A stretch of 35,678 nucleotides of DNA from Gemmatimonadota bacterium (GTDB lineage: Bacteria; Gemmatimonadota; Gemmatimonadetes; Gemmatimonadales; Gemmatimonadaceae). Under the pieces are notes generated by a model. It saw only the letters and a program-made list of their open reading frames with translations, had not been told where the DNA came from and did not search any database. The DNA is taken from assembly GCA_025362095.1 (NCBI GenBank), contig JANYIJ010000071.1, positions 1 through 35,678 of the forward strand. Reading direction: 5' to 3'. Position numbers and translations under genes: made by a program. Positions 12,735 to 16,964 of this stretch are shown here, one piece after another (within the stretch, counting starts at the first letter, position 1; each line of letters opens with the position of its first letter).

Positions 12735-14012
12735 CTAGCCGCCCGTCGGACTTACCTCCAGACGGGCCATGGCGTCGCCCACTGTGTGAAACGACCCAGT
12801 AATGAGCACTGTGGCGCCCTCCGCCGCCCCTCTTACGAGCGCCCGCTCGAAGTCCCGGATCACCTCGGCGTTCCACCCCCGCTCCAAGGCGTAGTTCAGC
12901 GGCTCGGGAATGCTCCAGGCCCGGCTCGACGGCGCTGTGGGCGCGTTGGTGAGGATGAACCGCTCAACCGAGGGCGCGAGCGCGTCCATGATGCCACGCC
13001 AGTCTTTGTCCGAGAGGACGCTTAGCACGGCGACAATCGGCTTTGGCGGAGCGATCGCCGCGAGGGTGCTCGCAAGCACCGCGGCGCCGGCCGGGTTGTG
13101 CGCGACGTCGAACAGGTACTTCCCCACGCGCTGGAATCGCCCTGGCAGTCGCACCCGTGGCAGTCCTGCCTGAATCTCGGCGTCGCTTGCCGCGAATTCG
13201 GGAGGCAGTGCGCGCAGCATGGCTATCGCGACGGCGGAGTTGCCCGCCTGGTGTGCGCCGAGCAGCGGCGTGGTGAAGGTGCGCTGCCCAAGAGTAAACG
13301 TCGTGCCGTTCGCGCCGACATGAATGTCCAGCGGCCCGCCGTCGTCATAGACCACATGGATCGGCGCCGCGCCATGCCTTCGCGCGTGCGAGGCGAGCAG
13401 CGCGCGAATCGTGGGATCGGGATCGCCGACGATCGCGGGGACGCCGCGCTTGAAGATCCCGGCTTTCTCGAATGCGATCTCCTCGAGCGTGACGCCGAGA
13501 TATTCGACGTGATCGATGCCGATGGTCGAGACGCCGGCAACAAGCGGAGTGATGACGTTCGTGGCATCGAGCCGGCCGCCGAGCCCAGTCTCGATCACGG
13601 CGACATCGACGTCCGCTTCGGCGAAAAACTCGAACGCCATCGCCGTGGTCGCTTCGAAGAATGTGGCGCCGAGCCGTTCGACTTCGGGCGTCCACTTGTC
13701 GACGAAATCGACGATGCGCTCGGGCGCCACCGGCGCGCCGTCGATCAGAAATCGCTCGCGAAAATCGATGAGGTGGGGCGAGGTGTACACTGCGGTGCGC
13801 AGACCCTTCGCGCGCAGAACGGCTTCGAGCGTCGCACAGACGCTTCCTTTGCCGTTGGTGCCCGCGACGTGGATTGTGCGGATGCGGCGGTGAGGATTGC
13901 CAAGCGATTCGAGGAATGCTTCAACCCGCTCAAGACCAAGCCGCCAGATTCCGGTGGTGCGCGCGTAGAGAAAATCGAGCGCGTCGCCGTACGTTCTCAG
14001 CTCGAGGCCCAC
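12735..14012 (-). CDS. folC: folylpolyglutamate synthase / dihydrofolate synthase
   Basis: FolC adds glutamates to (dihydro)folate in an ATP-dependent Mur-ligase-like reaction. The 425-residue product has the P-loop AGTNGKGSV at residues 50-58, then TSPHLIDFRERF, FEATTAMAFEFFAE, the family stretch VIETGLGGRLDATNVITP, and IGIDHVEYLG. The C-terminal Mur domain includes FDVAHNPAGAAVL. Length is normal. Translation starts at GTG 14012, which lies inside the last codons of accD (16-nt overlap). The accD-folC pairing is common in bacteria. Whether it does both reactions or only the polyglutamylation cannot be told without folP/folA context. Confidence 0.94.
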   Translation of the reverse strand: MGLELRTYGDALDFLYARTTGIWRLGLERVEAFLESLGNPHRRIRTIHVAGTNGKGSVCATLEAVLRAKGLRTAVYTSPHLIDFRERFLIDGAPVAPERIVDFVDKWTPEVERLGATFFEATTAMAFEFFAEADVDVAVIETGLGGRLDATNVITPLVAGVSTIGIDHVEYLGVTLEEIAFEKAGIFKRGVPAIVGDPDPTIRALLASHARRHGAAPIHVVYDDGGPLDIHVGANGTTFTLGQRTFTTPLLGAHQAGNSAVAIAMLRALPPEFAASDAEIQAGLPRVRLPGRFQRVGKYLFDVAHNPAGAAVLASTLAAIAPPKPIVAVLSVLSDKDWRGIMDALAPSVERFILTNAPTAPSSRAWSIPEPLNYALERGWNAEVIRDFERALVRGAAEGATVLITGSFHTVGDAMARLEVSPTGG

Positions 14013-14860
14013 CCGGTGGCGGCGGGCTTGCCGCTCATGTGCCGCAGCAGCTGGCCGACGGTTTGTTTGAGCAGCCCGCGATGCACGACGCTGTCGACCA
14101 TGCCATGATCGAGCAGGAACTCGGCGGTCTGGAATCCTTCGGGGAGATCTTGTCCGAGCGTTTGCTTGATGACGCGGGGACCGGCGAACCCAACCACGGC
14201 GCCCGGCTCCGCGAGAATGGCGTCGCCGAGCATGGCGAAGCTTGCGCTCACGCCGCCGGTAGTGGGATTGGTGAGAATAGAGACGTAGGGAATGCGCCGC
14301 TCGGCGAGCTGCGAGAGCACCGCCGAGGTCTTGGCCATTTGCATGAGCGAGAGCACGCCTTCCTGCATGCGCGCGCCGCCCGAGGCGGAGACGATGATGA
14401 GCGGGAATTTCTTCTCGAGAGAGCGCTGGCCGAGCCGGGCTATTTTCTCGCCGACAACGGAGCCCATAGAGCCGCCCATGAACGCGAAGTCCATTACGCC
14501 AACATTCACGGGCATTTTTTCCATCGTGCCGGTGGCGGTGATGATCGCGTCGCTATCACCGGCGTTGGCGTGCGCCTTTTTGAGGCGGCCGGGATATTCG
14601 GGAAAGGTCAGCGGATCGACCGAGCGGAGGTCGGTATCCTTTTCTTCGATTGAGCCATCATCCAAAAGGATGTTGATGTAATCGATGGCTCTAATGCGGC
14701 GGTGAAAGTCGCAGTTGGGGCAGACGTTATGGGTTTTGTTGAAGTTTTCGCGGATGTCAGTGTGGCCGCAGGATTCACACTTTTCCCAGACGTCGGCGGG
14801 GATTTCTAGCCGGGCGCCTTTGGGTTGTCGGAGTTTCTTTTCTTTTCTGAACCATGCCAT
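13997..14860 (-). CDS. accD: acetyl-CoA carboxylase carboxyltransferase subunit beta
   Basis: AccD with AccA transfers the carboxyl group from biotin to acetyl-CoA in fatty acid synthesis. The 287-residue protein has the N-terminal zinc ribbon with C28, C31, C47 and C50 (CESC...CPNC). The crotonase-like core follows, with FMGGSMGSVVGEKI, the oxyanion-loop region SASGGARMQEG, and TNPTTGGVSASFAMLGD. Length and motifs are standard. The ATG at 14860 is preceded directly by TAAGGA, which is unusually close for a ribosome site. It is the first gene of the accD-folC-hisS-proS-lysA-phosphoesterase unit. The sequence upstream (14861-14902) shows no clear promoter, and beyond it lies the repeat-flanked four-helix-bundle cassette. 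Confidence 0.96.
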   Translation of the reverse strand: MAWFRKEKKLRQPKGARLEIPADVWEKCESCGHTDIRENFNKTHNVCPNCDFHRRIRAIDYINILLDDGSIEEKDTDLRSVDPLTFPEYPGRLKKAHANAGDSDAIITATGTMEKMPVNVGVMDFAFMGGSMGSVVGEKIARLGQRSLEKKFPLIIVSASGGARMQEGVLSLMQMAKTSAVLSQLAERRIPYVSILTNPTTGGVSASFAMLGDAILAEPGAVVGFAGPRVIKQTLGQDLPEGFQTAEFLLDHGMVDSVVHRGLLKQTVGQLLRHMSGKPAATGWASS

Positions 14861-14902
14861 TCCTTAATGTCGCGGATAGGGACTGAACTCACAACTCGTG
14901 GA

Positions 14903-14979
14903 GGGGTGAGATGGGAGGCCAGTCTAGAGGGGCGAGGGCCAGGGGTGAGCGGGGCGATTTAGGGGCGTAGGGGTGAGCG
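14903..14979. repeat. inverted-repeat arm 1 of the four-helix-bundle cassette
   Basis: This G-rich arm is the inverted counterpart of 15641-15717. Over the outer 56 nt (14903-14958 against 15662-15717) 50 positions pair without gaps, including a perfect 30-nt block (14929-14958). Over the next 21 nt about 16 more match. It lies between the four-helix-bundle gene and the accD start. The spacer 14980-15082 holds no gene; it contains a 14-nt near-direct repeat (CTCGGCGCTTCTCG / CTCGGCGTTTCTCG) around 15023-15056. Confidence 0.88.
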
Positions 14980-15082
14980 CGAGAAGCTAGGGGGCAGGAC
15001 TGCGTTGACCTTGCGACGCCTCCTCGGCGCTTCTCGACACTGCTCGGCGTTTCTCGCGACTTCACGACACCGCTGTTCACGG

Positions 15083-15526
15083 CTAAATGAGCTGAGATCG
15101 TGGGGGTTTGGTGGCGAGCCATTTCTGCGCGCCGACTAAAATCCGGCGAAGTTCTGCGAGTTGCTCGAACCGCAGCTCTGCGGCCTCCGGCTCGAGCTCC
15201 TCAGCGATGGCTCGATACCAGGTGAAGCTCTCTCGCAGCGAGCCGAGTGCGATTCCGAAGCAACGAGAGCGATCGGCTGCTGAACTTCGGCCGAACCCTT
15301 CGGCGATATTTGCGCTGATAGACGCGACGGCCCGCAAAAGCTGTTCAGTTTGATGAGGGAAGGCGCGGTGGACTCGCAACGCTTGAACGTCTCGCGTGGC
15401 GAGATCGAGCATGTATAGCGCGACCCGATACGCATGGAATTTCCACATGTGATCTTCGCGCAGGCTCGGCGGAATACAAGCTTCCCAAGCCCGGAAGTGT
15501 TCATCGTGAATGATGGGCATGCGCAA
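15083..15526 (-). CDS. four-helix-bundle protein (23S rRNA intervening-sequence/S23 family)
   Basis: The 147-residue protein matches the four-helix-bundle family first seen encoded in intervening sequences of 23S rRNA. Diagnostic pieces are FPHQTEQLLRAVASISANIA, EGFGRSS, RCFGIALGSLRESFTWYRA and a last helix FEQLAELRRILVGAQKWLA. The related Avd protein works with reverse transcriptases of diversity-generating retroelements, but no such partner is visible here. The molecular role of stand-alone members is unknown; nucleic-acid binding is a family-level guess. The TTG at 15526 has GAGG 7 nt upstream; an ATG at 15520 would give a product two residues shorter. The gene lies in the loop between two long inverted-repeat arms, in the same direction as rodA. 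Confidence 0.85.
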   Translation of the reverse strand: MRMPIIHDEHFRAWEACIPPSLREDHMWKFHAYRVALYMLDLATRDVQALRVHRAFPHQTEQLLRAVASISANIAEGFGRSSAADRSRCFGIALGSLRESFTWYRAIAEELEPEAAELRFEQLAELRRILVGAQKWLATKPPRSQLI

Positions 15527-15604
15527 TGATGAACCTCGCGCGACCCAACAGTGTCACCCCCGCATTGCGTCGAGAATCGTTTTACGCCACGCCGTCGCGA
15601 GGCC

Positions 15605-15650
15605 TCGCCCCTAGTGCTCGCCCCTAGTGCTCGCCCCTAGTGCTCGCCCC
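15605..15650. repeat. 13-bp tandem repeat, about 3.5 copies
   Basis: The unit TCGCCCCTAGTGC is repeated three times without change (15605-15643), followed by half a copy (TCGCCCC). It overlaps the inner end of inverted-repeat arm 2. The remaining upstream gap of the four-helix-bundle gene (15527-15604) shows no gene. Confidence 0.9.
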
Positions 15651-15717
15651 TTCGCCGCTAGATCGCCCCGCTCACCCCTGGCCCTCGCCCCTAGAGCCTC
15701 CCCTCCCATCTCTCCCC
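15641..15717. repeat. inverted-repeat arm 2 of the four-helix-bundle cassette, abutting the rodA stop
   Basis: This is the partner of 14903-14979. Its outer end (15717) coincides with the last base of the rodA TAG, so on the mRNA the arm begins directly at the stop codon. With arm 1 it can close a stem of about 77 bp around a loop that contains the four-helix-bundle gene. Confidence 0.88.
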
Positions 15718-16964
15718 TAAATCACCAGCGTGTCCGCCTTGCCCCTCCCCTCTCCCGAAATCCGAATCTCAATCCCCACCGCAATCCAACAAGCGAGCAA
15801 GAACGACCCCCCATACGAAAAGAACGGCAACGGAATACCAGTGATCGGCATGAGATTCAGCGTCATTCCCACATTCACCAGCACATGGACAAACCACGTG
15901 CTCACCAACCCAAACGCCACCAAGCTGGAAAACGAATCTGTCGCTCGACCTGCAACCCGCACACACCTCATGAACAACCAAAGAAAGAGCAGCAGCGCGA
16001 TCGTAACTCCAACGAAGCCGAGCTCCTCACCCACCACCGGAAAAATAAAATCCGTATGCTGCGCCGGCAGAAACGCGAGTCTCTTTTGCGTCCCCATCGT
16101 AAATCCTTTTCCGAGCCATCCTCCCGATCCAATCGCCACCTGCGACTGAATCACGTGATATCCTGATCGCAGCGGATCTGATCCCGGATCCAAAAACACC
16201 AGCAGCCTTCGCTGCTGATATGGATTCAGCCGTTCCCACACCAGAGGCGCTACAACGCCCATCGCTACGTTCGCAACCACCACGAACACTCCCTCTGCGA
16301 TGTACGGGCGATACCACACCACCAGTGCGATCAATATCAGAAACCACGCACCCCAGATTGTCGTGTTCACGGCGAGCACCAGACTGATTCCAGGGCTGGC
16401 AGCAAGCATCAGCAGCTGCCATGAACATCCGCTCCAGAACAGCATCGCGAAAAAGATGCCGATGAAAACGAGACCGGTTCCCAAATCCGGCTGGAGCATG
16501 ATCAGAATCCAGGGCACTCCAACTACCAACGCGGGCTGCCACAAATCGAGCAGTGACTTCGGCGCATCTCTTCTCGCGGAGAGGACCTTCGCCAGCATCA
16601 GCACCACCACGATCTTGGCGAGCTCCGACGGCTGTCCGAGCCGGAATCCACCGATCATCAGCCAGCTCTTGGTGCTCGCGCCGGTGCCGAATCCCTTTCC
16701 AATGAACACGAGGAGCAAGAGCACGACGCACGTGATCGCGTACACCGGCGGCGTGATGAAATCGAGCATGCGCACCGACGCGCGGCTCGCGATGTAGGCG
16801 GCGCCGAGGCCCATCGCCAGCCACAACAGCTGCCGGTGCCAGAGCGAGGTTACACGCGTGAGGACATCCGTCTGGCCCGCCGAATACACCATCGCGAGGC
16901 CGAACAGCGAAAGCGTGAGTGCCAGCGCGAGCAGCGTAAAATCCGGAATGAGGCGCTGCTTCAC
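15717..16964 (-). CDS. rodA: RodA, SEDS-family peptidoglycan glycosyltransferase
   Basis: RodA polymerises lipid II into glycan strands for side-wall growth, together with the class B PBP encoded just upstream. The 415-residue inner-membrane protein has about ten transmembrane segments. SEDS landmarks are visible: GLAMVYSAG in the first helix, LDLWQPALVVGVPWILIMLQ followed by PDLGTGLVF in the middle, a large periplasmic loop around PGSDPLRSGYHVIQSQVAIG and FLPAQHTDFIFPVVGEELGF, and ending MPITGIPLPFFSYGGS. The start is GTG 16964 overlapping the mrdA TAG (TAGTG). The stop codon abuts the inverted-repeat arm of the cassette. FtsW is the alternative, but the mre-mrdA context supports RodA. Confidence 0.95.
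   Translation of the reverse strand: MKQRLIPDFTLLALALTLSLFGLAMVYSAGQTDVLTRVTSLWHRQLLWLAMGLGAAYIASRASVRMLDFITPPVYAITCVVLLLLVFIGKGFGTGASTKSWLMIGGFRLGQPSELAKIVVVLMLAKVLSARRDAPKSLLDLWQPALVVGVPWILIMLQPDLGTGLVFIGIFFAMLFWSGCSWQLLMLAASPGISLVLAVNTTIWGAWFLILIALVVWYRPYIAEGVFVVVANVAMGVVAPLVWERLNPYQQRRLLVFLDPGSDPLRSGYHVIQSQVAIGSGGWLGKGFTMGTQKRLAFLPAQHTDFIFPVVGEELGFVGVTIALLLFLWLFMRCVRVAGRATDSFSSLVAFGLVSTWFVHVLVNVGMTLNLMPITGIPLPFFSYGGSFLLACWIAVGIEIRISGEGRGKADTLVI

Follow-up and report, generated by a model that had tools for sequence, protein, structure and literature searches.

A gene of the 23S rRNA intervening-sequence protein family lies within a dispersed palindromic cassette in a Gemmatimonadota bacterium

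Introduction

Some intervening sequences (IVSs) of rRNA genes carry an open reading frame (ORF) of the S23p family. The sections of PMC4990558 that deal with these sequences describe the excision of an IVS of such design by RNase III and, in Coxiella, two or three tandem heptamers (depending on the strain) immediately upstream of the S23p ORF. The 23S rRNA IVSs of Coxiella, Leptospira and other bacteria resemble the locus reported here in having a stem, an ORF of the S23 family in its loop and a sporadic distribution. The cassette analyzed here differs from them in that it lies between protein-coding genes, is present in many copies per genome and is accompanied by cognate palindromes that lack the gene.

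The arms of the cassette are also similar to heptameric repeats reported from other bacteria. Intergenic heptamer arrays are described in PMC4692102 for Xanthomonas and Nostoc, with 70 and 75 cases of convergent inverted pairs in Xanthomonas, and PMC4679880 reports 169 sets of TAACTGA repeats in a draft genome of Beggiatoaceae. The main text of the former makes no mention of "four helix" or "23S", and that of the latter makes none of "S23", "four helix" or "23S rRNA". Among the top-ranked matches in the open-access literature, we found no paper tying heptamers to the PF05635 gene family.

Two further kinds of elements are relevant for comparison. REPIN/RAYT and IS/MITE pairs combine a gene-bearing element with dispersed gene-less palindromes that have the same ends, and the cassette is likewise accompanied by dispersed gene-less palindromes with matching ends. 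Eukaryotic foldback elements have long inverted arms assembled from short tandem units, and internal sequence may or may not be present. The likeness to the latter is one of design (long inverted arms made of short tandem units), whereas the cassette is bacterial and encodes its own small protein.

Here we examine a stretch of 35,678 nucleotides from a Gemmatimonadota bacterium of the family Gemmatimonadaceae (assembly GCA_025362095.1, contig JANYIJ010000071.1), referred to below as the window. A previous sequence-only reading of the window had proposed that it contains an IVS-like, possibly mobile cassette, in which a gene of the IVS protein family is enclosed by long inverted repeats.

Results

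The cassette is located between two host genes (Table 1), one of which, accD, is present in 40 of the 41 genomes searched. The inverted arms initially read at 14903-14979 and 15641-15717 are indeed there, with 66 of 77 positions matching without gaps (50 of 56 outer and 16 of 21 inner positions) and a longest run of 31. Local alignment of the flanks of the window cassette gives a score of 100, compared with a maximum of 31 among 500 dinucleotide shuffles. The outer end of one arm meets the stop codon of rodA, as had been noticed from the sequence. The loop gene was correctly recognized as a member of the S23/23S_rRNA_IVP family: its product matches PF05635 with 49.4 bits (cut-off 33.8), over profile positions 32-103 of 106, and TIGR02436 with 61.3 bits (cut-off 24). 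The mechanically derived ORF of this gene begins at a TTG codon at position 15526; the ATG start given in Table 1 appears more likely, because relatives at the same site begin with ATG-Pro-Ile.

Table 1. Features of the cassette and of its neighbors in the window.
Feature	Position	Strand	Remarks
Inverted-repeat arm 1, accD side	14902..14990	.	89 nt, with 83% complementarity to arm 2; also dispersed through the genome
Inverted-repeat arm 2, rodA side	15630..15718	.	Outer end overlaps rodA stop codon
13-nt tandem units, inner end of arm 2	15605..15651	.	Lag-13 match 0.61 over 15605-15718
S23/23S_rRNA_IVP four-helix-bundle gene in loop	15083..15520	minus	145 aa, ATG start
rodA, host neighbor	15717..16964	minus	ORF; name by reading alone; adjoins accD in relatives
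accD, host neighbor, other side	13997..14860	minus	ORF; name by reading alone

The AlphaFold model of the window protein is a helix bundle (pLDDT 92.9). The best PDB folds found with Foldseek are 2gsc_B (E 4.6e-05, TMt 0.82) and 2rld_E (E 1.2e-04, TMt 0.90), and no solved fold other than chains of these two entries, both members of the same family, reaches E <= 0.001; the predicted structure is that of a four-helix bundle like theirs. The minus-strand RNA of 14880-15740, whose folding had been proposed as a check, has a predicted energy of -422 kcal/mol, which corresponds to z -7.2 relative to 20 shuffles. The window cassette thus shows the design of an IVS, a predicted stem with an S23 ORF in the loop. 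The location in rRNA that characterizes an IVS is absent, given that the cassette is found between rodA and accD and that the window has no Rfam match at gathering scores. Therefore, we do not file the element as an IVS, even though its protein is filed in the IVS protein family.

In order to see how regularly genes of this family are enclosed by inverted repeats, we examined the flanks of PF05635 genes in the genus, in the phylum and in other phyla. There are 57 PF05635 matches across 18 congeneric genomes, found in 14 of the 18, with 10 copies each in G000 and G011, 11 in G014 and 0 in four congeners. Linkage was scored for loci with >= 300 nt on both sides, which leaves out 4 of the 57 genus genes and 11 of the 80 loci in the many-phyla sample described below, and the threshold was an inverted-flank score of >= 36. 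This score is reached by 44 of 53 PF05635 genes in the genus and by 0 of 131 control ORFs, which were taken from three 20-kb stretches of G014. Enclosure is therefore shared by other family members, a point that the sequence-only reading had proposed to check, and unrelated flanks in relatives, which it had named as a finding that would speak against the cassette, are not the pattern found. Eight of the nine armless genes (9/53) belong to one old common site, which is found in 12 genomes with a single gene orientation; arms persist in its remaining 4 members.

The association extends beyond the genus. Elsewhere in Gemmatimonadota, 20 of 25 loci reach the threshold in inverted orientation (25 full-length loci were used of 28). 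The many-phyla sample consists of 80 loci, the best matches among those listed in a genome scan; 31 of its 69 usable loci score >= 36, compared with 1 of 101 control ORFs, and 38 of these 69 best-listed loci fall below. When the two congeneric loci are set aside, 30 of 67 best-listed loci reach the threshold in inverted orientation and 5 of 67 in direct orientation. The inverted score is higher than the direct one in 48 of 53 loci of the genus, 22 of 25 of the phylum and 63 of the 67 loci that the comparison covered among the 80 best listed, and direct scores >= 36 are found in 6 of 53 and 2 of 25 loci of the genus and phylum, respectively. Mismatched pairs of flanks, used as an additional control, reach the threshold in 24 of 420 cases in the genus, where the best among those listed are mostly cassettes from the same site, and in 29 of 407 cases in the many-phyla sample, where heptamers in common are the likely cause.

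Relatives of the gene are also present in 28 plasmid records, 8 of which we opened. Five of these 8 loci reach the threshold of 36 when inverted, and in 7 the inverted score is the higher of the two; in the Pseudanabaena plasmid locus (L294) the direct score of 125 exceeds the inverted score of 61. The plasmid loci have varied surroundings. On the plasmids of Anabaena sp. 90 (L287) and Pseudanabaena galeata (L294), the four-helix-bundle gene is found within a CRISPR operon, with cas6 on one side and cas4 on the other; in the former, cas1d of type I-D is annotated further along and the gene flanks are inverted heptamers. On plasmid pNe_5 of Nostoc edaphicum (L291), the gene lies on the opposite strand between two genes for ribonucleotide reductase subunits.

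The arms have a short-period structure. We tested lags from 4 to 13 in 67 of the 80 best listed many-phyla loci and found lag 7 to be the best upstream of the gene in 62 of these 67 loci (17 of 139 control flanks) and downstream in 32 of them (18 of 139). Among the opened plasmid loci, seven have lag 7 as their best upstream lag, and Gemmatirosa has lag 8. Arms from the genus (n=40) peak at lags 7, 14 and 21 (0.448, 0.396 and 0.388), compared with 0.27-0.32 at the other lags tested. In the window's own arms, period 7 is not significant, being reached by 156 and 362 of 2000 shuffles. The heptamer unit varies from element to element. In 39 of 41 genus cassettes, moreover, the upstream arm has a positive GC skew, being rich in G, and each strand therefore enters the palindrome via a G-rich arm. 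Both flanks of the gene on contig C238 of G000 (1240-1429 and 1845-2036 in locus L011) are themselves palindromes of ~190 nt each, so that arms are present there as direct as well as inverted copies.

The arms of the window cassette are not restricted to the rodA-accD junction. The host genome contains 18 further matches to them beyond the window, which group into 6 complete gene-less inverted pairs (~220-250 nt) that align end to end and 6 copies that are single or lie at a contig edge. Another family of palindromes has arms matching those of the cassette on contig C37 of G000 and occupies at least 13 places in the host without the gene, of which one is partial; this count is a lower bound, as 40 of 228 candidates were scored. 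The sequence-only reading had considered that the arms might turn out to be a common genome repeat unlinked to the gene. The first half of this description applies, because the repeat is dispersed in the genome, but the second does not, because the repeat goes with the gene class.

In the stretches sampled, long gene-less palindromes were confined to genomes that carry the gene. Those from the gene-bearing G014, G011 and G016 (460 kb) contain 11 gene-less palindromes of >= 80 bits, compared with 0 in 400 kb comprising one contig from each of two gene-free congeners, where the palindromes are shorter; the binomial p of 0.001 for this contrast is based on length alone and ignores relatedness. 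Nine of the 11 match the arms of a cassette in the same genome (7 of 7 in G014, 2 of 3 in G011 and 0 of 1 in G016), and a comparison of 46 arms with the 400 kb of the two gene-free congeners gave no match at E 1e-4.

We also compared occupied and empty sites. Empty sites, which had been suggested as a check on the cassette, exist: the gene is absent from the rodA-accD junction in nine congeners and present in seven (G000, G006, G009, G011, G014, G016 and, by matching flanks, G017), in a tally that leaves out G010 and G012. Where the gene is missing, the gap measures 20-84 nt in nine congeners; in G018 it is 66 nt. A gene-less short-repeat palindrome is found at this junction in G023 (L055), which belongs to another genus, and in G021 (L058) the gap is 689 nt and holds a different long inverted repeat. 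At other places, the cassette on contig C83 of G009 is also found in G014; G011 and G000, whose flanks match (94% and 82% identity), lack it, and the gene-less C128 element of G000 is absent from G014. The spot of the C83 cassette holds a heptamer hairpin in G011 (L298) and another repeat in G000 (L299).

The gene is found on either strand relative to host genes. At rodA-accD it is co-directional with both neighbors in G000, G009 and G011 and opposite in the other four genomes. At a second site the cassette of G011 is flipped relative to those of G009 and G014, with breakpoints at the arms, and the host flanks of G009 and G011 are 94% and 89% identical. Some of these flips could be independent insertions; between G000 and G009 at rodA-accD, dS is 1.9 for the gene and 0.7 for accD. 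At the four insertion edges that we compared, homology to the emptier relative stops <= 15 nt from the stop codon of a long ORF (rodA and ORFs of 440, 538 and 353 codons). These four hand-picked edges fit a preference for the ends of genes. We saw no target-site duplication at the junctions read, the flanks of which have diverged, and found no clean excision product.

The protein is under purifying selection, with dN/dS of 0.07-0.26 in 10 same-site pairs, several of which have a genome in common, and it therefore matters to the element or to the host. It has no known catalytic domain, and we searched for two families of enzymes that could act on the element, RVT_1 and Y1_Tnp. The structure of the diversity-generating retroelement protein Avd (4dwl) resembles the window protein at a non-significant E-value (Foldseek E 0.19, prob 0.99, TMt 0.62, 17% identity), and phrog_3206 Avd matches one canonical member of the family at E 0.006 and not the window protein. 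This likeness would suggest mobility that depends on a reverse transcriptase. In contrast to such retroelements, 17 of 18 congeneric genomes lack RVT_1, including the gene-rich G000, G011 and G014 (the one match is in G017), which disfavors this possibility. Y1_Tnp is absent from all 18 congeneric genomes, while a control search was positive in 5 of 14 known genomes, and mobilization of the RAYT/IS200 type is likewise disfavored. The cassette thus differs from REPIN/RAYT and IS/MITE pairs in the lack of a Y1 match, in encoding a small helix bundle and, as far as the diverged junctions show, in having no target-site duplication.

Discussion

We propose that the cassette belongs to a dispersed, IVS-like family of palindromic, foldback-type elements as a copy that carries the gene, and that its protein acts on its own palindrome and on gene-less ones; we assign this reading a probability of about 0.55. 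The earlier suggestion of an IVS-like mobile cassette is retained to the extent that the design of an IVS is present outside rRNA and that the element belongs to a dispersed family. Action of the protein on its own palindromes is the simplest account, since it covers the linkage between gene and arms, the gene-less cognates and the selection on the protein. In the mechanism that we infer, the most likely target of the protein is its own arms, bound as hairpin DNA or RNA. The protein may assist the copying or maintenance of these palindromes, in cis as well as in trans where they lack the gene, with the chemistry supplied by host replication or recombination. Arms that recombine with each other would invert the gene between them and, at certain sites, would stay similar. 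As for the copies themselves, our guess is that they could be made by replication across hairpins or by recombination with host enzymes.

An alternative that we regard as improbable, yet worth serious attention, is that the protein is an RNA-binding autoregulator or a passenger, that the arms serve as RNA stems for cleavage by RNase III, and that the palindromes are spread by host recombination or an unrecognized transposase with no help from the protein. It would agree with the strong predicted folding of the cassette RNA and with the excision by RNase III of an rRNA IVS of such design in the part of PMC4990558 cited above. We designed a test of G-U asymmetry to separate an RNA stem from a DNA palindrome. 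Mismatches of the G-U type lean toward the sense strand of the gene (107 vs 80), as expected of an RNA stem, but the lean is borderline and not significant (p = 0.057). The alternative is also at odds with the occurrence of gene-less cognates beside cassettes and their absence from the stretches sampled in two genomes without the gene, and with the presence of the gene on either strand relative to host genes.

It seems less plausible still that the arms originated locally through short-repeat slippage and owe their continued similarity to gene conversion, with cassettes that are immobile, vertically inherited and lost in some lineages. The arms are indeed short-period arrays, the sequence of which is different at each site and between species, and the old site common to 12 genomes has one orientation. 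The arms are 0.82-0.97 identical within an element, and the values between species at rodA-accD are lower, 0.36-0.86 for 20 of the 21 genome pairs. The contrast is partial at the second flipped site (0.85-0.97 within, 0.79-0.87 between), and at three other compared sites the arms are as alike between species as within elements, or more so; homogenization of the arms is therefore not general. Loss would fit the accD tree, in which the empty G005 and G007 are nested within the occupied group; this placement is weakly supported, and therefore both loss and repeated gain are possible. Against slippage, one arm sequence recurs at unlinked places within a genome, and the copy number varies between 10 or 11 (G000, G011 and G014) and 0 (four congeners).

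Two other explanations are very unlikely. That an ordinary repeat or terminator family encloses the gene by chance would suit a dispersed repeat, which the arms truly are, but we reject it given the contrast between genus genes and control ORFs (44/53 vs 0/131) and the linkage outside the genus; that the gene is a defense or toxin-antitoxin gene within a repeat island would suit the mobile-looking context and the cas6-cas4 position in two cyanobacterial plasmids, but the cas location is only one among several observed and neither of the two family members tested has a PADLOC match, which leaves a defense gene without support.

Returning to the proposed foldback-type element, we put forward, tentatively and with clearly less confidence than for the cassette itself, that PF05635 proteins in general may be trans-acting factors of an unrecognized, widespread class of bacterial foldback elements that would move or multiply without a known transposase or reverse transcriptase, each protein recognizing its own heptamer-built palindrome. 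The IVSs of rRNA would then be a special case, and the class could be a main source of the unexplained heptameric repeats in many bacterial genomes. The recurrence of this design around the gene in many bacterial groups, together with gene-less copies of the arms, suggests a little-recognized mobile hairpin element. A protein family of unknown function thereby gains a concrete partner, namely its own inverted short-repeat arms, and three unexplained things are joined: rRNA intervening sequences, orphan four-helix-bundle genes and heptameric repeats. Should the palindromes indeed owe their spread to the protein, this would be a mobility system without a recognized recombinase.
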